This document shows, one piece after another, positions 55,040-64,000 of a DNA stretch of 64,000 bases (position 1 is its first letter; each line of letters begins with the position of its first letter). The position numbers were made by a program, and so were the translations under genes. Under the pieces are notes generated by a model. The model worked only from the letters and a program-made list of their open reading frames with translations. It did not search any database and was not told where the DNA came from. The stretch is from Oceanobacillus sojae (GTDB lineage Bacteria > Bacillota > Bacilli > Bacillales > Amphibacillaceae), in assembly GCF_900162665.1 (NCBI RefSeq), contig NZ_LT727811.1:376063-440062 (forward strand), read 5' to 3'.

Positions 55040-55291
55040 TCCCATCATCCTTTTTGATCGGCTCTAGTCAATAAAGTAATATTTTTAAATATAACAGTAT
55101 AAAAGCTCCTTCACGCTCATACTTTTTTTAACCCTATACGAAATAGATTAACATTAATTTTTCACACAGTCAAAATAACGTTATAATGTTTATGATTAAT
55201 AGAACAATAAACTATATAAATTGATATATATAAATAAGTTGAACTTATATAGATGGATTCACAAAAAAACTGTATCTAATGATACAGTCAA
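55040..55291 (-). promoter_or_regulatory. Upstream region of the dga-kdgK operon
   Basis: Very AT-rich, 252 bases. A minus-strand TTGACT followed 17 bases later by TAATCT could be a weak promoter, with an imperfect AACATTATAACGTT dyad just upstream of it. No regulator gene is linked. Confidence 0.3.
55262..55288 (-). terminator. Terminator of the EssB-kinase-phosphatase-FHA operon
   Basis: Perfect 8-bp stem ACTGTATC/GATACAGT (55269-55276 with 55281-55288), tetraloop, then TTTTTTT on the minus strand, just past the EssB-like stop. Confidence 0.9.
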
Positions 55292-56641
55292 TTAACTCTC
55301 CTTAATTTCTTTAATCTGTTTATCTATTTTCTTAATTTCATCCTCTTTTTTCTCCTTCTTCATATCTTTAGATTTGACCTCTTCTTTTTTTAGCTCCAAA
55401 CTGTTAATTTGCATATCCTTATTATTAAGCTCTTCTCCAAGCTTCAGAGCTTCTTTGTGATTATCAAGCTCCAGATAACTTCTTCCGGCGAGATATTTGG
55501 CACGATCATTATCAGAAATATCACCATAAATATCTATAACACGCTCAAAATCTTCGTTAATCCACGCCTGTTCAATCGTTACCTCCGGGGCCTCAGATTC
55601 AATATCGAGAATAGCTTGTTGTGCTTCCTCTCCATCTATTGATCTCAATTCATTAACCACCTTAACGTTATAGGAAGGATCCGATTTACTAGCCTTGTTT
55701 AAGCTGTCGACCGTTCCTAATTTGATATATTGCTCTATTAAGGTATGTTGTGCCTCTTCATCTAACTTCTCTATACTTTCAAAGCTGGCAATAGCTTCTT
55801 CGACCTGCCCCGTTACTGCCAAATAATAACTCTCGATTATTTTATCATTTTCCACAATCTCCGCTTCTAATGCTTCTTTTACTTCCGTGAGTTCTTTTTG
55901 TTGATCCGCTTCTGCAGTAAAAGCTTCTGTCATCGGTACAACTTTAACTACATAAAGCAGAAGCATCCCTAAAACTATCCCAATCACTAATCCGGCTGGC
56001 ACAGCTATTTTGGACTTATTATATTTTTGAAAATTTTTCTTTAGTATGCCATCAGTTTTGATAGTATTTGTCGCTGTTGCAAACTGACTAATCACATTTC
56101 TTAACTCTTCTATCGTAACAGCTTTCTGTATTTCTCTGATAACTGGCTGTTCCTGTGCTAATTCATCAATGTTACTACTATTTACGGCTGCTGCGCTAAA
56201 AATTCCGATTATTATCGGCTTTACTTCATATACCACTTGTTGTCTCGTAAACTCGTCAGTTGATAAAACAAAACGAATACCACGTTGTGCAAATTTTATG
56301 TCTCCTTGTTCGTTGACATAGATATTATCTGGATGAATAAGTGTCGTATATTGTGTGCCAACTAATTTTTCTACAGCTAATATATTCAATGCTACTTTAG
56401 CTTTCAAATCATTATTTTTTGCCTTAAAGCTGGATAAGGGCATAAACCCTTGTGACTTCTGGTAATAAATGCGAACAACATCACCTTCAAGTGAATACCG
56501 CTTGAAATCGAAGAAAAGGTCATCCTGTCTATTCAGCTCTTCCAATTGTTCTGCATCTATTATATTCGTTTGGCTTTTCGGAATTTCATAAATAACTTCA
56601 TCAGCTATTTCTTTGATAGAGCCGTATTTCTGTTCCTTCAT
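55292..56641 (-). CDS. EssB/YukC-like membrane pseudokinase
   Basis: A 449-residue bitopic membrane protein with the layout of EssB/YukC of type VII secretion. The cytoplasmic pseudokinase-like domain (about 1-215) contains TLIHPDNIYVNEQGDIKFAQ then RGIRFVL. One membrane helix (about 222-240, AGLVIGIVLGMLLLYVVKVV). The extracytoplasmic part is alpha-helical and repeat-like (about 250-410), ending in a Lys/Glu-rich coiled coil. No EsxA, EssC or EsaA gene lies in the window; instead it follows a real kinase, a phosphatase and an FHA protein. GGAGG precedes the ATG at 56641. Possibly a structural or signalling subunit of the neighbouring Tad-like machine rather than of a T7SS. Confidence 0.75.
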   Translation of the reverse strand: MKEQKYGSIKEIADEVIYEIPKSQTNIIDAEQLEELNRQDDLFFDFKRYSLEGDVVRIYYQKSQGFMPLSSFKAKNNDLKAKVALNILAVEKLVGTQYTTLIHPDNIYVNEQGDIKFAQRGIRFVLSTDEFTRQQVVYEVKPIIIGIFSAAAVNSSNIDELAQEQPVIREIQKAVTIEELRNVISQFATATNTIKTDGILKKNFQKYNKSKIAVPAGLVIGIVLGMLLLYVVKVVPMTEAFTAEADQQKELTEVKEALEAEIVENDKIIESYYLAVTGQVEEAIASFESIEKLDEEAQHTLIEQYIKLGTVDSLNKASKSDPSYNVKVVNELRSIDGEEAQQAILDIESEAPEVTIEQAWINEDFERVIDIYGDISDNDRAKYLAGRSYLELDNHKEALKLGEELNNKDMQINSLELKKEEVKSKDMKKEKKEDEIKKIDKQIKEIKES

Positions 56642-56662
56642 CTTGCTCACCTCCATGACATA

Positions 56663-57475
56663 TTATCTGTTACGGGAATGAATGAACTTTTTTATTCGCT
56701 CCCGGCAGGGTCTGTTAACTTTGGCAAATGCAGAGATTACCTTCTCAATATTGGTAAAGCGTTTATCCGGATTTGTCGATGTCAGTTTTATTACTATATT
56801 GGCAAAAGCCCTGGGAAGCCGCTTACGAAGAATAATTTCATGGTCACTCGCATAAATATTCCCGCCATTACTCGCTAAATAAAATAAGACCGCACCTAAT
56901 GAGAATAAATCCGAGCGGAGATCCACTACACCATTCTCGAATTGCTCTGGAGCGGCATAACCAATTGTACCTAATGCATTCACCTGTCCTGCCTGTTCGA
57001 CAGTGGCGGATATACCAAAATCAACCAGATATACCTTCTGATTCTCAGCAAGCAATATGTTAGATGGTTTAATATCTCTAATCACGATTGTCGGCTTATT
57101 CTGATGAAAGACCCGGATAATGTCAGCCAATTGTTTTGCAATACCCAGTATTTCCTCCCAAGTAAATTCCTTTCCTTTCTCCATTAGGTCAGAAAGGTCA
57201 GTGGCCGTTAATTTCTCTATTACGATAGCATTATAATATTGATTTATTGTCAATTTATCATATAGTTTCGGGATTCGGTCATGATTTACTGAAGCAAGGA
57301 TAGCTGCCTCATTATCTACTTGATTGTTCAACAAAGTGTCCGGGCTCTTTACCACCTTCAGCAGGGCATGTTCTCCATGACTCAATTTCACCTCATATAA
57401 AAGAGATGTGCCGCCTTCTGCTACATAATCGATAATTTCATATTTATGCTGAATCATCTCATGCTTCTTCCACAT
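56663..57475 (-). CDS. Ser/Thr protein kinase
   Basis: A 270-residue Hanks-type kinase without visible membrane helix. ATP-binding VAEGGTSLLYEV (about 18), Lys in GEHALLKVVKS (about 41), catalytic loop VIRDIKPSNILL (about 130), DFG in VYLVDFGISATVEQ (about 150), activation segment GTIGYAAPEQFENGVV. It lacks the PASTA domains of PrkC. It follows the PP2C gene with a 2-base gap, forming a kinase-phosphatase pair feeding FHA recognition. Confidence 0.92.
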   Translation of the reverse strand: MWKKHEMIQHKYEIIDYVAEGGTSLLYEVKLSHGEHALLKVVKSPDTLLNNQVDNEAAILASVNHDRIPKLYDKLTINQYYNAIVIEKLTATDLSDLMEKGKEFTWEEILGIAKQLADIIRVFHQNKPTIVIRDIKPSNILLAENQKVYLVDFGISATVEQAGQVNALGTIGYAAPEQFENGVVDLRSDLFSLGAVLFYLASNGGNIYASDHEIILRKRLPRAFANIVIKLTSTNPDKRFTNIEKVISAFAKVNRPCRERIKKFIHSRNR

Positions 57476-57477
57476 AG

Positions 57478-58338
57478 CTATTCCTCAACTCTTTGGCTAA
57501 AATTAACCGCTAGAACTGATGCATCATCAGTACGTTTCTTTGCTTTTGTTAATGCATAAAAGTGAGAAATAATCGCCTCCAGCGACTGCTTTTTCTCTAT
57601 CTGTGCTGTCCACTCCTTATTTAACTCATTATTTGTAAATAAAGTATGAAATCCATCCGTACACAACAAAAAAGAATCTGAAACGGTAAAAGTACCGGAA
57701 GCTGTATATGGTTCCACTTTACCTTTCACTCCCATACATTGTGTTAAATAGTGGGCTTTATCATGAGATTCGGCCTCTTCCACTGTCATCAAACCTTCCT
57801 CCACTTGCATCGAAGCAAAGGAATGATCAACCGTTAACTGGAGAAATACCTTCTCTTTATTCAAATCAATCGTGTCACCATTTGACTCTTCCAGCTCGTT
57901 GATATTCTCCCGATAACGATATATCCGACTATCACCAACATGGCAGATAAAGTATTGATTCTCGATAAACAAAAGAACACTTAAGGTAGTACCAATTTCT
58001 GTCTGTTCTAATTTACTAATCTCAATCAAGCGATCATTAATCTCATGGAAAAGGGTAATTAATTGCTCTTTGCAAGTCGATAGAAAGGATGCAGGTTCTT
58101 CATTCATCCAAATGGTGCTGCGCCACCATTGCAATACATAGTCAACAGCAAAACGACTGGCAGCATCACCTAAAGAGTGACCTCCCATCCCATCTGCAAT
58201 CACTGCCAGATGCACTTCCTGTTCGGACGACAGCCTATCGCTGGAGTAACCAAATGCATCTTGATTCGATTTCTCCAGGGAAGGCGTTAAACTGAATTTC
58301 TCCATCTGTATGACATTGCTCAGCTTTGTGTTATTCAT
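57478..58338 (-). CDS. PP2C-family Ser/Thr phosphatase
   Basis: A 286-residue metal-dependent phosphatase. Metal-binding motifs: AVIADGMGGHSLGDAASRFA (about 48-67), ICHVGDSRIYRYREN (about 135), and FLLCTDGFHTLFTNNE (about 222). The N-terminal SLEKSNQDAFGYSSD is typical. Soluble. Its ATG overlaps the stop of the FHA gene (ATGA). It should reverse phosphorylation by the kinase encoded next. Confidence 0.93.
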   Translation of the reverse strand: MNNTKLSNVIQMEKFSLTPSLEKSNQDAFGYSSDRLSSEQEVHLAVIADGMGGHSLGDAASRFAVDYVLQWWRSTIWMNEEPASFLSTCKEQLITLFHEINDRLIEISKLEQTEIGTTLSVLLFIENQYFICHVGDSRIYRYRENINELEESNGDTIDLNKEKVFLQLTVDHSFASMQVEEGLMTVEEAESHDKAHYLTQCMGVKGKVEPYTASGTFTVSDSFLLCTDGFHTLFTNNELNKEWTAQIEKKQSLEAIISHFYALTKAKKRTDDASVLAVNFSQRVEE

Positions 58339-59768
58339 TCGGACACCTTATAAGTGTAGACTGTTTTTCCAATTTGGATGGTATCATCACTTGATAGCTC
58401 ATAAATTTTATAAGGAATGATCTTTTCGTTATTAATATAAGTTCCATTTTTGGCTCCCAAATCTTTAATGCCGTATGTATCCGATAATTTGACCAGCTCT
58501 ACATGTAAGCGGGAAATACCTACAGCCTTTTCGATAAAGTCGGTTCCTTTTTCTGCACGTCCGATAATAAAGTTATCCTTCTCCAGTTGAATTTCTTCCT
58601 CTGCCTCATCACGATTAATCACTAAATAGTTTCTGATTTTCTTCTTGCTTTGCTCTGGAATCATTTCGGTTTCATCTAATAACATTGTTTGGTCATTTGT
58701 TTCTTCGCGCCTGTCATCACCTGAGGAAGCTATCGGTTCAAACTCTGTAACCTCCTGATTCTGCACCTGCTGGTTATTTGTGATTACCGTAGCTGATATT
58801 TCTTCCACTACTCGTTGCTCTTCTACATTTGTTTCTTTATCATTTTTGCGGAAAGACGCCTGTTTTGTTGGCTTACTTTTTACTTTGACCTCTTTTTCTG
58901 TAATAATCGGTTTGACGCCTGGTCTCCAAACAAACCAATACACATACACTCCGGCCATAATGACGAGGGACAAGGCTATAGAGACAACCAGCATAGCGGT
59001 ATTACCTGCATCCATATATAATCGCCATACTCCTGCCAACAATAGAACACCAATCAAAATAGAGTACGTTTTTATCTTGCTGGCAAGAGGCGGCATTTTT
59101 CGTACCTTTTTTATCTTTATAATTTCTTTAGGCTGGGAAACTTCTCTTTGATAGTCTTCCTCTTCCCCCTCTCCTTGGTACCCCTGTTTTTGCAGTTGGC
59201 TCAACAACTGCTTAATACCATGCAAGCTAAAACCCGGATCTTTGATATAGTTTAGAATCGTTTTGAATTGCACACCATTCAGGCCTTTAACTTCACTCGC
59301 CATATTTAATAATAATTTCTTCAGGCTCTCGTAAAGAGTTGAATTGGTTACTCCCTCTTTTAATGGGACATACATTAAATAAACCTGATGATATCCGTCG
59401 CCAATATAGATGTACTCCTCATCAAGGACAAAATGGTCTTCACTTAACATATTATTGTTTGAATCTTGTAAGGCTTGAATAATATTAATAAACAAAGCAT
59501 AATAGTTTTGCATCGAAAGTGGACGTTCCTTAGCAAAAGGGCGTAACTTGCGCAATCCCTCTGTCTTATAAAATACAGTGATTTCTTCGTTCATTTCTTC
59601 CAAACTTATTGGTAATAATCTTGGAATATGGTTAGATTGAATCATTTTTAATTGTAGTTCTTGAAAATCATCTGCAGAGAAGCCTTTCTCACTTGTTTGT
59701 TTCAGCTTCATATAGCCGCCATTTGATTCTAATTGGTCTATATGGTACAGCTCCAATGGATTAGACAC
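58335..59768 (-). CDS. DUF6382-type protein with C-terminal FHA domain
   Basis: A 477-residue membrane protein. The N-terminal about 200 residues resemble the DUF6382 domain (LLPISLEEMNEEITVFYKTE, YYALFINIIQALQDSNNNML). A short charged linker leads to two membrane helices (about 235-285, TYSILIGVLLLAGVWRLYM and LVVSIALSLVIMAGVYVYW). A Lys/Glu/Thr-rich linker with possible phospho-sites follows. The C-terminal FHA domain (about 385-477) has FIIGRAEKGTD, ISRLHVELV and AKNGTYINNEKI, which bind phosphothreonine. Start is GTG behind GGAGG. First gene of the kinase/phosphatase/EssB-like operon. Confidence 0.85.
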   Translation of the reverse strand: MSNPLELYHIDQLESNGGYMKLKQTSEKGFSADDFQELQLKMIQSNHIPRLLPISLEEMNEEITVFYKTEGLRKLRPFAKERPLSMQNYYALFINIIQALQDSNNNMLSEDHFVLDEEYIYIGDGYHQVYLMYVPLKEGVTNSTLYESLKKLLLNMASEVKGLNGVQFKTILNYIKDPGFSLHGIKQLLSQLQKQGYQGEGEEEDYQREVSQPKEIIKIKKVRKMPPLASKIKTYSILIGVLLLAGVWRLYMDAGNTAMLVVSIALSLVIMAGVYVYWFVWRPGVKPIITEKEVKVKSKPTKQASFRKNDKETNVEEQRVVEEISATVITNNQQVQNQEVTEFEPIASSGDDRREETNDQTMLLDETEMIPEQSKKKIRNYLVINRDEAEEEIQLEKDNFIIGRAEKGTDFIEKAVGISRLHVELVKLSDTYGIKDLGAKNGTYINNEKIIPYKIYELSSDDTIQIGKTVYTYKVSE

Positions 59769-59809
59769 GAGCTATTCCTCCTTTGTTTGATGCTGTTTCT
59801 ATTTTTTAA

Positions 59810-59952
59810 GAGGATATTCAAAAAGTCATCAAACCTTCTCTATGGGACGAGTAATCTCAATCCCAGACACCTGAGACTTTAGCCGACAGCTTCTAATTTG
59901 GGACTGTGAACTCGCCCAATCGAATACCATTAGCAACTTTTTGAACACACAC
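59810..59952. repeat. Small terminal-inverted-repeat element, copy 1
   Basis: A 143-bp stretch starting GAGGATATTCAAAAAGTC and ending in AACTTTTTGAACACACAC, whose reverse complement shares TTCAAAAAGT. Same ends, opposite orientation, as 61841-62122. It lies between the FHA gene and the prepilin peptidase stop (59954). No coding frame. Confidence 0.6.
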
Positions 59953-59953
59953 T

Positions 59954-60472
59954 TTAAGCAATATACATGTAGTAGAATGCAGTAATTACACCAGGTATAA
60001 CTGCAAATATGAATGGGAAACGGTTAGACACATTTTTTTTAAACGCCTCTAATGGTGTTAATGACCTCTTCTGGATACTTTCCTTGATATGTATAAAAGC
60101 CAACAACATGTTAATAAAAATTGTTTTGGTAAATAATAAAATAATAACTCCAATAATACCGGCAAAAACAATCGAATACATCGTAGCATATAAGGTGAAT
60201 AACACCCCAGTAATCGCACCAATCGCTGCAAACAGTTTTACATCGCCCGCACCAATTGCTTTAAATATATATAATACAAGCATAATCCCGCCGCCCGCCA
60301 ATACTCCAAACACAGATTGTAATAAACCATCGATTTGATGTACAAACAAGTGATATAAAATACCTGCTAGAACTCCTGTTACATTGAGCCAATTGGGAAT
60401 TCGCTGTTTACTGATATCGAAATAAGCTACTACGAGCAGAAAAATAATTAATAGAATAAAATGTCCCTGCAA
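59954..60472 (-). CDS. Prepilin peptidase (A24, TadV/CpaA-like)
   Basis: A 172-residue membrane aspartyl protease of the short, methylase-lacking type. Catalytic Asp residues in AYFDISKQRIPNWLNVTG (about 17-34) and the GxGD motif in KAIGAGDVKLFAAIGAITG (about 70-88). Six hydrophobic segments. It would process type IV/Flp prepilins or TadE-like pseudopilins. Start is TTG 8 bases after GGTGA. It lies 20 bases after the TadE-like gene. Confidence 0.87.
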   Translation of the reverse strand: MQGHFILLIIFLLVVAYFDISKQRIPNWLNVTGVLAGILYHLFVHQIDGLLQSVFGVLAGGGIMLVLYIFKAIGAGDVKLFAAIGAITGVLFTLYATMYSIVFAGIIGVIILLFTKTIFINMLLAFIHIKESIQKRSLTPLEAFKKNVSNRFPFIFAVIPGVITAFYYMYIA

Positions 60473-60492
60473 TGTTCAGCTCACCTTCCTTC

Positions 60493-61086
60493 CTAATTTC
60501 CAACCCAGCCACGCTCCACTGCCACCTTCTTAATTTTGATTTCTTTCTCAAAGAAAGGAAGCACCATTTGCATCGTATTCTCTGCTTCAATCTTGACATT
60601 TGCGGCATCTCCGCTTGTACCATGCGGAAAGGAAGAATTGGTTACACGAATATTCTCAGGGCTAAAAAAGCTTGAAGAGAACACATTTTCTTGGTACATT
60701 CCTTTTACAATATCTTGATATACACCATCCGAGAAGTGGTTAAGCGCTTCTCCAGATGTAGGAATTACGTCTTTTCCCACTTCACCTAATTTGTTTAAAA
60801 TGTATTCAGCCACCTCATCGTTTCCCAGCTTACCAGCAGCATTATCTGTCAACGAATCCACAAATCCATCTGTCTGATCCTGAATTTGGTTTTGTGCCAG
60901 CATCGCTAAATAAGAATAATGGGCTACAGATTGTGCTGTCTCGTTTACAGCTTCTTGTAAGGCCATCTCTGCAATCGATATTTTCACTAATGAAGTCAAA
61001 AATAGTATAAAAGTCAGTAAAAGAGGGATGATTAATGCTGCTTCCACTGTTATGCTTCCATTATCCTTTTTTAGAAATCTCAACAT
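60493..61086 (-). CDS. TadE-like pseudopilin
   Basis: A 197-residue protein with a short basic leader, the TadE-type motif NGSITVEAALIIPLLLTFIL (about 9-28), and a single N-terminal membrane helix extending to about 35. The remainder is extracytoplasmic. The Gly-Ser-Ile-Thr-Val-Glu pattern resembles a prepilin-type cleavage site for the neighbouring peptidase. GGAGG supports ATG 61086 over 61101. Confidence 0.85.
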   Translation of the reverse strand: MLRFLKKDNGSITVEAALIIPLLLTFILFLTSLVKISIAEMALQEAVNETAQSVAHYSYLAMLAQNQIQDQTDGFVDSLTDNAAGKLGNDEVAEYILNKLGEVGKDVIPTSGEALNHFSDGVYQDIVKGMYQENVFSSSFFSPENIRVTNSSFPHGTSGDAANVKIEAENTMQMVLPFFEKEIKIKKVAVERGWVGN

Positions 61087-61233
61087 AACTCCCTCCTTCA
61101 TCTTTTAGGACTTACCCTAATCAATGTTCACACATCGATAGGGAATCCTGTCATAATTAGCTATCTTTTCTATTTTGTATTGATTATTGATTAAAAAGTG
61201 CTCTTTGTGATTTCTCCTCACCTGATTCATCAT

Positions 61234-61818
61234 TTATTTTTCTGGGTTTGGTAATTCAAAATGTGTTTCTGTATCTGATGTGAATTCATATTTCAATAAA
61301 AATGCATCAGCATAATCTGTTGTTGTCGTATAAACCAGATGTCCTTCCACTTCATCACCCGGAGCTAACTCTTCATCTCCTTCAGGGAAGAATTCATCAT
61401 AGGATGTATGCCCGCCCTCTTCATCAATACCTGAAAAATTGGCAGAAAACATTTGGTTAGGAACATAGCTCTGGTCGCTAATATTTTTAATTGTAATATC
61501 CACTACAGCAAATACATCTTCCTCACGAGCTCCCGAAAGATAATCATCAATCGTACTATCATCAACCTCTTTTGTTAACTGAAAATCGTTTACCGTTACT
61601 TCATAATCAAATTCATATAGATCACTGGTAATTACTGCTGTTTCTCCGATTTGATAGACTTTTTTCTGCTCTGCTTCTTCAGAAGTGCCTGCGTCAGTTT
61701 CATTTTCTGTTGTGTTATCTGTATTTTCTTCCCCAGTATTTTCTGTTGCTTCTCCCTCATCATTACAAGCCGCTAATAACAAGATGGCAAATAATAATAA
61801 AATAAGTAGTTTCTTCAT
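61234..61818 (-). CDS. DUF4352-type lipoprotein
   Basis: A 194-residue secreted lipoprotein. Signal peptide with lipobox LLAAC (Cys about residue 18), an acidic Glu/Asn/Thr-rich tether (about 19-50), then a beta-sandwich of the DUF4352/telokin-like type: QIGETAVITSDLYEFDYEV, VFAVVDITIKNISDQSYVPN and a closing LKYEFTSDTETHFEL. TAGGAGG precedes the ATG. Function unknown; placed in the pilus-like locus. Confidence 0.8.
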   Translation of the reverse strand: MKKLLILLLFAILLLAACNDEGEATENTGEENTDNTTENETDAGTSEEAEQKKVYQIGETAVITSDLYEFDYEVTVNDFQLTKEVDDSTIDDYLSGAREEDVFAVVDITIKNISDQSYVPNQMFSANFSGIDEEGGHTSYDEFFPEGDEELAPGDEVEGHLVYTTTTDYADAFLLKYEFTSDTETHFELPNPEK

Positions 61819-61840
61819 TTGAAATTCCTCCTAGTTAATA

Positions 61841-62122
61841 GTGCGTGTTCAAAAAGTTCGGTAAATAGGACCAAGAAGTTCAAGGTGACGTTTTTTTACG
61901 AACGGACTTCCACAGGATGTGGTGACTTCTGTGTTGTCCACAGGACGTGGACGGCCTTAACAGAAGTTCCTCTTTGCTTTTAAATACGTGAGTATCGGAA
62001 AAAAACGTCAACGCACTTCCGCAGGATGCGGTGGCTTCTACGTTGCCCACATGACGTGGGCGGTCTTAGTAGAAGTTCCTCTTATCGCCGCGTCATTTTT
62101 ATTGGACTTTTTGAATATCCTC
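61841..62122. repeat. Terminal-inverted-repeat element, copy 2, carrying two RNA-like modules
   Basis: A 282-bp unit with left end GTGCGTGTTCAAAAAGTT and right end GACTTTTTGAATATCCTC, the mirror arrangement of 59810-59952. The right end runs into the stop codon of the gene at 62122. Inside is an approximately 70-base unit repeated twice. No transposase. Confidence 0.65.
61910..62075 (-). ncRNA. Tandem Bacillaceae-1-like hairpin pairs
   Basis: Copy 1: CCAC-loop-GTGG (61910-61922) and GTCCAC-loop-GTGGAC (61936-61952) inside ACTTCTGT/ACAGAAGT (61925-61932 with 61960-61967). Copy 2: CCGC-loop-GCGG (62019-62031) and GCCCAC-loop-GTGGGC (62045-62061) inside CTTCTAC/GTAGAAG (62035-62041 with 62069-62075). 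Minus-strand loops are AUCCU, GUCCU, AUCCU and GUCAU. Two hairpins with RUCCU loops are what I recall of the Bacillaceae-1 RNA motif. Confidence 0.6.
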
Positions 62123-64000
62123 TAATATGAATATACTTTTCGCCTGTCAAAAATATAGTAGTTGCCCTCTACATTGCCTGGCAAGACTTCAACTAATTGA
62201 GGTATAAACCATAACTTTACCCTGCCTTGTACATTCCCTTCAATATAAGATGGGCTGTTATTTAAATGAACACCAGTTTCTTTCGTTATCACTGCCTGCA
62301 GCCTTCTCGCTTTTTCGTTATTATATGTTTCATTCGTTGACTTCATAGCCATTATAATACGCAGGAACATCGGCATATTGATTGGAACACCTTTCCCGCC
62401 AAACGTTTTAAATGGGTTCCATTGTAAAGTATATTTACCAGTAGTAAGAGTGTTCAAGTCTTGTAAAGTGGTTATAAGCGCGCCTGACAGTGCCTTAAAG
62501 AATCCTAATGGTCCGGCAAATCCTCCCTGTAACCCTTGACCAATCAAATTTCCCACAAATAAGATCAACGCAATGTCCTTCATAAACATAAAATAATTCA
62601 TTCCAGCTACATTATAGCCATAGGTGATGTATTGTGCTTTTTTGGTAGAAAATGCATAAGATTCCGCACTGGCTAACTCATAAGGTGCTTTAGATCCATA
62701 GTTTGCCATAATATATTCATTAATATATAACTCGTTACGAACCGATGTCGGAAAACCTTGCATAAATTCGACAAATTCTTTAAATCGCTCGAATGCGTCT
62801 TTGATAAATTGCAGGCGGCTGGATTCTCCATCATCTCCACCTTGACCTGTCACCCCATCATACTCTGCGATAATACTATCCAGTTCCGCATACAATTGAT
62901 TATCACCTGATATTTGATTTTTAATATCATTGTATTTGTTCAATTCCGCCCATAAGCTGCCGAAGCTTTCATCTGCTTTTTCTTCTTCCGCCTTAATATC
63001 CACATTCTCTAATGCTTTTTTCACATTATCATATTTTTGCATTTGATCTTCTATTTTTTTTACTTGCCCGCTCTTCAGATTAGTTAATTTATTTTCTATC
63101 GACTGAATGATCGCATCGGCAAGCTCTTTGTTACCATCTTCTATCGCTACATAAAAAGCTAAAAATAATTGGCCTACACTGAAACTCCCCAAGTTTCCTT
63201 GCTCCGGACTGCCTTCTAAAGACTTGTCAAACCGGATATTTTCATAAATTTGATCCTCATTATCCAGAATAGCGGTAAAAAATTCATCGTTTAATGTAAA
63301 TTCCTCTAATTCCTCTAATGATTCACTATCTCCCATTAATTCATTAATCTGGTCATTATAATCTTTGGCTGAACCACTTGCGGGATTATTTGTATCTCGA
63401 TTAGAACCAACTAGATGCTCTGGTATGCCCGTATGGTATATTTCCATATCGATAACACTTTTATATGGTTTTTCTTTCACTCCATCTTCATAGCTTGTAA
63501 TTTCCTTTTCTTCATCAGAGGTCAGTTCTTCTCCATTGTCTTTCTTTTCCTTTAATTCTTGATATCTGTCAATATAGAAAACAAGCTGTTGAAACGTTTT
63601 GATACCTTCGGGGATGGTTTCCTCTTCTGAAGTTACTTTCTGGCCAATCACCTTAGCACCGATATCTTCTTTAATCAATTTATTATAAGGAGTTAATTGT
63701 TCAATAGCCTGATCAATTTCTGCATTTCGTTTTTTCATTAAATCCAGAATCTCTTCATAGTTTTCTATTAGTTCTTCTGCTTTTTCCACATCTTCTACCG
63801 AAATATCATTATTTGTCAGTAAATCAAATAAATCTGTACCCATTTGTACCGGTGCTTGATACTTCATGCTCTCTACAATCTGATGCCTAAAAACATTATA
63901 ATCAACCAGGTTTCTTGACGTATCAAAGCTGGCTGTTGCACTTGTAATCATTGGTCTTGATAAGTTCTGTGTACCACTTAGTTCAGAGGAAGAATAAAAC
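62122..64000 (-). CDS. Large membrane/secretion-locus protein, 5' end outside the window
   Basis: At least 609 residues from the first visible Met (63951), but the frame stays open to the window edge, so the gene probably begins beyond it. It begins with a Ser-rich stretch and ITSATASFDTSRNLVDYNVF. Long acidic coiled-coil-like segments follow (about 40-110 and 270-330). A hydrophobic segment FMKDIALILFVGNLIGQGLQ with GGFAGPLGFFKALSGALITT after it is near 455-495. It resembles the large uncharacterised proteins next to TadE genes in Firmicute Tad loci (DUF5702-like), but I cannot confirm the family. The stop lies at the edge of the repeat element. Confidence 0.6.
   Translation of the reverse strand, partial: FYSSSELSGTQNLSRPMITSATASFDTSRNLVDYNVFRHQIVESMKYQAPVQMGTDLFDLLTNNDISVEDVEKAEELIENYEEILDLMKKRNAEIDQAIEQLTPYNKLIKEDIGAKVIGQKVTSEEETIPEGIKTFQQLVFYIDRYQELKEKKDNGEELTSDEEKEITSYEDGVKEKPYKSVIDMEIYHTGIPEHLVGSNRDTNNPASGSAKDYNDQINELMGDSESLEELEEFTLNDEFFTAILDNEDQIYENIRFDKSLEGSPEQGNLGSFSVGQLFLAFYVAIEDGNKELADAIIQSIENKLTNLKSGQVKKIEDQMQKYDNVKKALENVDIKAEEEKADESFGSLWAELNKYNDIKNQISGDNQLYAELDSIIAEYDGVTGQGGDDGESSRLQFIKDAFERFKEFVEFMQGFPTSVRNELYINEYIMANYGSKAPYELASAESYAFSTKKAQYITYGYNVAGMNYFMFMKDIALILFVGNLIGQGLQGGFAGPLGFFKALSGALITTLQDLNTLTTGKYTLQWNPFKTFGGKGVPINMPMFLRIIMAMKSTNETYNNEKARRLQAVITKETGVHLNNSPSYIEGNVQGRVKLWFIPQLVEVLPGNVEGNYYIFDRRKVYSY

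Follow-up and report, generated by a model that had tools for sequence, protein, structure and literature searches.

At the end of a 64,000-nucleotide stretch of the Oceanobacillus sojae genome (contig NZ_LT727811.1, positions 376,063 to 440,062; this whole stretch is termed the window), the genes of a Tad (type IVc) pilus locus were found to be followed by four genes encoding a DUF6382-FHA protein, a PP2C phosphatase, a Hanks-type Ser/Thr kinase and an EssB/YukC-like pseudokinase. These last four genes probably form a dedicated control and scaffold unit of a monoderm Tad pilus machine. Judging from their domains and from likeness to known FHA switches, this machine is likely to be controlled through reversible phosphorylation of the FHA protein on threonine, with the EssB-like protein serving as a membrane scaffold. 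A sequence-only reading of the window had described Tad-like pilus genes joined in one locus to a kinase-PP2C-FHA circuit and an EssB-like pseudokinase; this combination was confirmed and its arrangement is conserved.

A kinase, phosphatase and FHA protein with intact active-site and pocket residues

The four genes and the features within and beside them are as follows (amino acids, aa; window positions).

58335..59768, minus strand: protein with DUF6382, two transmembrane (TM) helices, linker and FHA domain, 477 aa (DUF6382 E 6.9e-23, FHA E 1.9e-13)
59175..59756, minus strand: DUF6382 domain, residues 5-198, kinase-like fold by model
58686..58688, minus strand: codon of Thr361 in the linker motif DQTMLLDE, predicted phosphoacceptor
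58338..58637, minus strand: FHA domain, residues 378-477, pocket residues G403, R404, S419, R420, H422, N441 and G442
57478..58338, minus strand: PP2C phosphatase, 286 aa (PP2C_2 E 3.7e-15)
56663..57475, minus strand: Hanks-type Ser/Thr kinase without sensor domain, 270 aa (Pkinase E 1.2e-30)
55292..56656, minus strand: EssB/YukC-like bitopic pseudokinase, 454 aa (YukC/EssB PF10140 E 6.2e-24)
55268..55289, minus strand: terminator-like hairpin, 9 pairs then a T tract (consensus match only)

These genes are tightly packed, with the FHA and PP2C genes overlapping by 4 bases and the gaps that follow measuring 2 and 6 bases. The terminator-like hairpin begins 2 bases past the stop codon of the EssB-like gene, and the region holds six such hairpin and T tract sites, compared with a mean of 2.6 after shuffling.

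The catalytic residues of the kinase (K, D, K, N and DFG) are all present, as are the conserved Asp residues of the PP2C phosphatase and the phosphothreonine pocket residues of the FHA domain. The two helices previously ascribed to the FHA protein were confirmed, with the N-terminal DUF6382 domain adding to that description. This domain is predicted by structural modelling to have a kinase-like fold; it returned no PDB match by sequence, its kinase likeness being one of predicted fold only. A sequence relationship of DUF6382 to the EssB pseudokinase domain or to the kinase of the locus found no support (hhalign probabilities of 18.4%, 1.8% and 0.2%). Ahead of the FHA core, a T-x-L-L motif was identified in the linkers of all 31 proteins of the set built around the window's protein, the last T.[LAM]L being situated 14-27 residues before the core.

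In the GarA and OdhI switches, an FHA domain binds a phosphothreonine of its own protein, either within the molecule or on a neighbour, this residue lying shortly before the FHA core in an ETTS-type motif. The protein of the locus resembles them in its FHA fold and pocket and in having a Thr motif just ahead of the FHA core, but differs in being membrane-anchored and fused to DUF6382, and in its T-x-L-L motif, with the switch here being predicted from sequence. By analogy, the kinase would phosphorylate Thr361 (T-M-L-L) in the linker and the FHA domain would then bind this phosphothreonine intramolecularly or on a neighbouring molecule, as in GarA and OdhI, altering the contact of the FHA protein with the TadA/TadB/TadC/TadZ motor platform, with the PP2C phosphatase resetting the switch. 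The EssB-like protein may act as a dimeric bitopic scaffold, with a glycine zipper in the membrane, a kinase-fold face inside the cell and helices in the wall zone; such a dimer would tie the FHA protein and the Tad motor to the envelope, much as EssB does with the EssC FHA domains in type VII secretion. The pseudokinase domain of YukC has been described to bind the FHA region of the YukB ATPase in an apparently phosphorylation-independent manner (PMC9600267, available part).

The same four genes could be wired otherwise, with the kinase mainly targeting TadZ, TadA or the EssB-like protein, the FHA domain reading phosphothreonine in trans and the linker motif being a docking segment. FHA proteins often bind partners in trans, and the pocket is also intact in Tad loci that have no neighbouring kinase or PP2C gene (L091-L094, L096), with no linker motif found within the 110 residues before the FHA core in L091 and L094. 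Against this stand the T.LL motif of all 31 proteins and its spacing from the FHA core, near the position of the phosphothreonine in GarA and OdhI, and we regard this wiring as unlikely.

The Tad genes

The remaining genes of the locus, together with those located upstream of the window, are listed below.

59954..60472, minus strand: prepilin peptidase, TadV-like, 172 aa (Peptidase_A24 E 1.1e-18)
60493..61101, minus strand: TadE-like pseudopilin (TadE2), 202 aa (TadE PF07811 E 3.3e-6)
61234..61818, minus strand: DUF4352 lipoprotein, 194 aa (DUF4352 E 1.6e-8)
62122..64000, continuing to G000:C16:440376 (L005 8185-10377), minus strand: putative TadG-like large pseudopilin, 730 aa in full (position and N-terminus)
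G000:C16:440333-446325, minus strand, upstream of the TadG-like gene: TadE1, lipoprotein, Flp-like pilin, TadC, TadB, TadA and TadZ-like genes

The eight open reading frames (ORFs) reported earlier from the window are all present at these positions and on the minus strand. Seven of the encoded proteins have Pfam matches over the cut-off, the exception being the large secreted or membrane protein, which had no Pfam match over the cut-off; from its position and prepilin-like N-terminus, this 730-aa protein may be called TadG-like. An inspection beyond position 64,000 had been suggested for Tad ATPase and pilin genes, and TadA, TadB, TadC, an Flp-like pilin, a TadZ-like gene and a second TadE were found there on the same strand. 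The upstream genes are thus Tad genes, rather than being unrelated to Tad or type VII secretion.

From Pfam matches, signals and position, the locus was classed as an Oceanobacillus Tad (type IVc) locus, with a complete-looking set of Tad genes co-oriented in one run. TadA was identified with T2SSE (E 3e-56), its best NCBIfam match being the TadA family TIGR03819 at 297.6 bits, below the cut-off of 373.15. TadC and TadB both matched T2SSF (E 4.2e-7 and E 2.1e-11, respectively). PF07811 exceeded its cut-off twice in the locus (TadE1 and TadE2), barely so for TadE1 (E 8.3e-5). The TadZ-like ATPase matched the general family AAA_31 (E 4.3e-10), its name resting on position. A 58-aa ORF was recognised by eye as the Flp-like pilin by the signal EEG|LETIE, with Glu at +5 and Ile rather than Tyr at +6, counted from the predicted cleavage site; small pilins without Tyr at +6 were termed Flp-like by Imam et al. 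(PMC3244431, available part). A second DUF4352 lipoprotein is encoded upstream of the window between TadE1 and the Flp-like pilin. DUF4352-type lipoproteins are amplified within such Tad loci (L039, L044, L075 and others), commonly with one to five matches and with seven in L075. The ORFs flanking the locus on both sides have a metabolic or transport-related look by eye.

This composition also bears on whether the machine builds a pilus at all, or is instead a pseudopilus-type secretion device for which the four genes gate secretion. The Ile at +6 of the small pilin, making it Flp-like in the sense of PMC3244431 (available part), would suit such a device, as would the three larger pseudopilin-type proteins and several lipoproteins of such loci and the occurrence of EssB homologs otherwise in secretion or conjugation. 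Since the locus has a motor, a platform, a prepilin peptidase and a small pilin, we consider a secretion device improbable.

Conservation of the arrangement and linkage to TadA

A total of 147 family genomes were searched in four ways (PF10140, TadA, DUF6382 and EssC) and the results compared. TadA matches at 1e-40 were obtained from 66 genomes, 29 of which, with at least 66% identity, were defined as the TadA lineage of the window; the rest, at most 52% identical, were taken as other Tad lineages. DUF6382 was located within 14 kb of TadA and on the same strand in 28 of these 29 genomes, the two lying on different contigs in G018. The EssB-like gene was situated 10-14 kb from TadA on the same strand in 19 of the 29 (20 when G018 is counted, with the gene on a second contig). 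Across the family it adjoins DUF6382 in 21 genomes, including G018 and also G115, the contig of which is cut.

With second segments of the same genes and a G066 fragment left out, 24 PF10140 matches were not type VII-like by score. Nineteen lie beside TadA, those of G115 and G018 lie beside DUF6382 on contigs without TadA, and three are not Tad-linked, namely those of G051 (in a type IV secretion system, T4SS) and of G060 and G022 (both weak). The G066 fragment belongs to a broken-looking Tad locus (L109; G066:C1:756968-757349). There, 8 bases separate the end of a fragmentary DUF6382 match from a fragmentary match to the C-terminal part of YukC, which looks as though the intervening stretch had dropped out.

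A survey for the FHA-PP2C-kinase-EssB order beside Tad genes, proposed with the sequence-only reading, showed the arrangement to be conserved, with the two halves of the locus staying together in relatives rather than being consistently separated. This order was found downstream of the Tad genes in 14 of 21 loci inspected (L005 and 20 fetched), the contig of L056 beginning at the FHA gene and that of L054 within TadE2. Three other loci (L050, L052, L053) lack EssB and instead carry two PP2C genes and a long kinase (646-652 aa) that contains a hydrophobic segment and is extended at its C-terminus; it is as if the jobs of kinase and EssB-like scaffold were combined in one protein. The C-terminal parts of these kinases were examined as candidate EssB ectodomains, for which no support was found (hhalign below 1%). 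In L042 and L044 the FHA gene is kept, but the stretch shows neither PP2C nor kinase nor EssB; L051 breaks off ahead of the kinase, and L055 belongs to conjugation. Searching named genomes with an EssB-like profile yielded 21 loci from Oceanobacillus, Virgibacillus, Gracilibacillus, Lentibacillus, Ornithinibacillus, Paucisalibacillus, Alkalicoccobacillus and Alkalihalobacillus. Every one of them shows FHA, PP2C, kinase and EssB-like genes in this order (with one extra ORF before the EssB-like gene in L077), and a prepilin peptidase is located upstream in 20, L060 being cut by its contig. The inspected and the named loci are not independent sets, because several species are common to both.

Distances between proteins were correlated with those of TadA over 12 of the 14 EssB-bearing loci; L054 and L056 were excluded because contig ends cut their Tad genes. 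Correlations were r 0.93 for FHA, 0.95 for PP2C and 0.97 for the kinase, compared with 0.91-0.96 for TadZ, TadB and TadC, 0.78-0.80 for TadE1, TadG and TadE2, and 0.65 for the peptidase.

Several observations count against the four genes being a fixed unit of the Tad machine. No EssB-like gene lies within the locus in 10 of the 29 genomes, and with one of these due to a contig break, 9 of the 29 Tad loci lack it. The distances of the EssB-like protein correlate with those of TadA at only r 0.37, though even this value was reached by 0 of 1000 permutations. Trees of the kinase, FHA and PP2C proteins split the loci into two deep lineages (support 100), a split missing from the EssB-like tree, where the first lineage as one group was not rejected (p-AU 0.0925). 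Tight co-inheritance of the EssB-like gene is therefore unsupported by distances and trees; the gene may have moved between the two locus lineages, or its rate may be too uneven to tell. The FHA-PP2C-kinase cassette extends beyond Tad loci, being found in EssC loci too (PMC11217815, available part).

The cassette in the wider class

Across 398 class genomes, DUF6382 was detected in 53 (51 over the cut-off) and matches to a profile of the EssB-like protein (A1) at 1e-8 in 33, type VII EssB included. The contexts of 33 fetched loci were inspected. DUF6382-FHA proteins are encoded in Tad loci both without a neighbouring kinase (L091-L094 of family f19, and L096) and with one (L095, L099-L102, PP2C being present in four of these five), and alongside TadA and a kinase in L103. 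In L097, L098 and L104-L107, an EssC-type ATPase has a DUF6382-FHA protein, PP2C and a kinase of 527-662 aa in its vicinity. This resembles the published T7SSe (PMC11217815, available part), a class of type VII secretion system (T7SS). The EssC profile used here was built from L104-L107, the genomes of which also exceed the TIGR03928 cut-off. The ORF following the short kinase of L099 (416 aa) was considered as a diverged EssB and rejected, having a lipoprotein-like start and no EssB-like profile match. In L108 (G057:C1:69500-89400), a TadZ, a DUF6382-FHA protein, two PP2C and a long kinase are encoded together, with no TadB or TadC in 20 kb and a weak TadA-profile match (8e-4), the genome having no TadA match at 1e-40.

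These contexts could indicate that the four genes are a general envelope-signalling unit that merely adjoins Tad genes, as the FHA-PP2C-kinase cassette also occurs near EssC (L097, L098, L104-L107), with neither machine detected in the inspected stretch (L110), and once with TadZ and no clear TadA (L108). The linkage of DUF6382 to TadA in 28 of 29 genomes of the lineage and the FHA, PP2C and kinase distances that follow those of TadA (r 0.93-0.97) oppose this, and we judge it quite improbable. A dedicated Tad unit is still the reading preferred here. From the wider Tad, EssC and conjugation contexts, it follows that the cassette and the EssB-like gene can occur apart, as separate modules, and are brought together in this Tad lineage.

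The EssB-like pseudokinase and its relatives

The EssB-like protein consists of a cytoplasmic kinase-like fold (residues ~13-198), a TM segment (~221-240) carrying a GxxxGxxxG glycine zipper and a helical ectodomain (~245-453). It scored 85 bits with PF10140 (cut-off 27.4) and has the features of the EssB/YukC family, namely a kinase fold without catalytic residues (alignment by eye), one TM segment and a helical ectodomain. Profile-profile comparison with type VII EssB (hhalign) gave probabilities of 99.5% for the kinase-fold part and 94.5% for the ectodomain over 79 columns, and its structural model matched 6z0f, 4ano and 4ann. In a tree built with every second of 30 type VII rows and four from the class, the Tad-locus proteins form their own clade, apart from type VII EssB and conjugation-type relatives (support 99/97). 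The architecture of pseudokinase, TM segment and helical ectodomain is that of EssB/YukC of type VIIb secretion, with the differences being a separate clade, the glycine zipper, the kinase, phosphatase and Tad genes as neighbours, and a host genome without an EssC over the cut-off or a WXG100 match.

The lack of Esx and EssC genes noted earlier for the locus was found to extend to the genome. The best match to the EssC model TIGR03928 (E 2.4e-36) is under its 778-bit cut-off, a threshold passed in 62 of the 147 family genomes, E 0.001 matches being found in 146. PF06013 (WXG100) had 0 matches at E 0.001, with Bacillus subtilis positive as a control. Nor is this confined to O. sojae: 19 of the 21 family genomes with an EssB-like gene beside DUF6382 have no EssC over the cut-off, the exceptions being G124 and G018. 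Among the best 7999 candidates scored, public records (P0004, P0006, P0010 and others) label such proteins 'type VII secretion protein EssB/YukC', the window's protein being 94% identical to the O. sojae record P0004; it is 88% identical to that of O. sojae NBRC 105379 (L057).

This annotation and the PF10140 match could be taken to mean that the gene is a stray or remnant of a T7SS. Such an origin is contradicted by the genome lacking an EssC over the cut-off and any WXG100 match, by the separate Tad clade, by the 19 of 21 family genomes and by a score of 82.2 bits against the NCBIfam T7_EssB equivalog TIGR03926, under its cut-off of 229.75; we reject it as almost certainly wrong. As those 19 genomes have no EssC over the cut-off, the database label is questioned for Oceanobacillus, Virgibacillus and relatives.

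An EssB-type pseudokinase outside T7SS has already been described in TraF of the pIP501 T4SS (PMC13037476, available part), and the A1 profile finds the TraF structure 8cba at E 4.2e-9. TraF likewise serves a machine other than T7SS but belongs to conjugation, and no FHA-fold protein was found among the pIP501 Tra proteins according to the available part of that paper. Within the window's own family, an EssB homolog (L055 9446-10792) lies between a VirB4-type ATPase, which directly precedes it, and a lysozyme/NlpC protein; this T4SS protein had no PF10140 match by hmmscan, yet scored 40.2 bits in the genome search and 42.6 and 31.4 bits against local profiles (the latter only when filters were off). 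EssB homologs of family f32 adjoin conjugation genes for a VirD4-type coupling protein (L081, L083, L084), TrbL (L083) and a VirB4-type ATPase (L078). With these conjugation-locus proteins, the TraF case widens to relatives that sequence searches can detect. In L085 (G364:C11), a very divergent EssB-like ORF of unsure tree placement adjoins a vWA lipoprotein, with a small Flp-like match nearby.

Comparison with described systems and implications

The locus shares with known Tad/Flp (type IVc) loci a co-oriented run of TadA, TadB, TadC, TadZ-like, Flp-like pilin, TadE-type and A24 peptidase genes, and differs from them in four extra genes (DUF6382-FHA, PP2C, kinase and EssB-like) and in DUF4352 lipoproteins. 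The main text of Imam et al. 2011 (PMC3244431) nowhere uses the terms FHA, forkhead, kinase or phosphatase. Among the papers listed from the open-licence PMC literature, neither an EssB in a Tad locus nor an Oceanobacillus with Tad pili was found, and DUF6382 was found only in PMC11217815, whose available part places it in T7SSe and T7SSf.

According to the available part of that paper, T7SSe and T7SSf have accessory proteins (TseJ, TsfJ, TseF and TseD) that likewise include a DUF6382-FHA protein (TsfJ also with two TM helices), a PPM phosphatase and, in T7SSe, a kinase; theirs accompany an EssC-type ATPase and WXG100 proteins, whereas the O. sojae genome has the cassette and no EssC over the cut-off. 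A link between Tad and T7SS parts has already been noted there, with T7SSg and T7SSh situated beside Tad genes and a TadZ-like domain in T7SSf, and no EssB or DUF6382 is named in a Tad locus in that part of the text. The joining of a Tad locus to kinase, PP2C, FHA and EssB-like genes suggests that such machines share interchangeable control parts.

A broader idea, put forward tentatively as one that may well not hold, is that EssB-family pseudokinases are a transferable membrane scaffold shared by type VII secretion, conjugation T4SS and Tad pili, three machines of the envelope with no other relation, and that every machine has a separate clade. The Tad form would keep a phosphorylation-competent state (live kinase, phosphatase, phosphothreonine-binding FHA domain and a second pseudokinase, DUF6382), and the EssB-EssC contact of type VII secretion, which is independent of phosphorylation, could have arisen from that state. 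The locus offers a natural comparison for the question of why pseudokinase and phosphate-independent FHA domains lie at the core of type VII secretion, as the same pair of folds here adjoins a kinase and a phosphatase with intact active sites. If the proposed role of the four genes is true, Tad pili would gain a dedicated Ser/Thr phosphorylation switch and EssB would no longer be a part of type VII secretion only.

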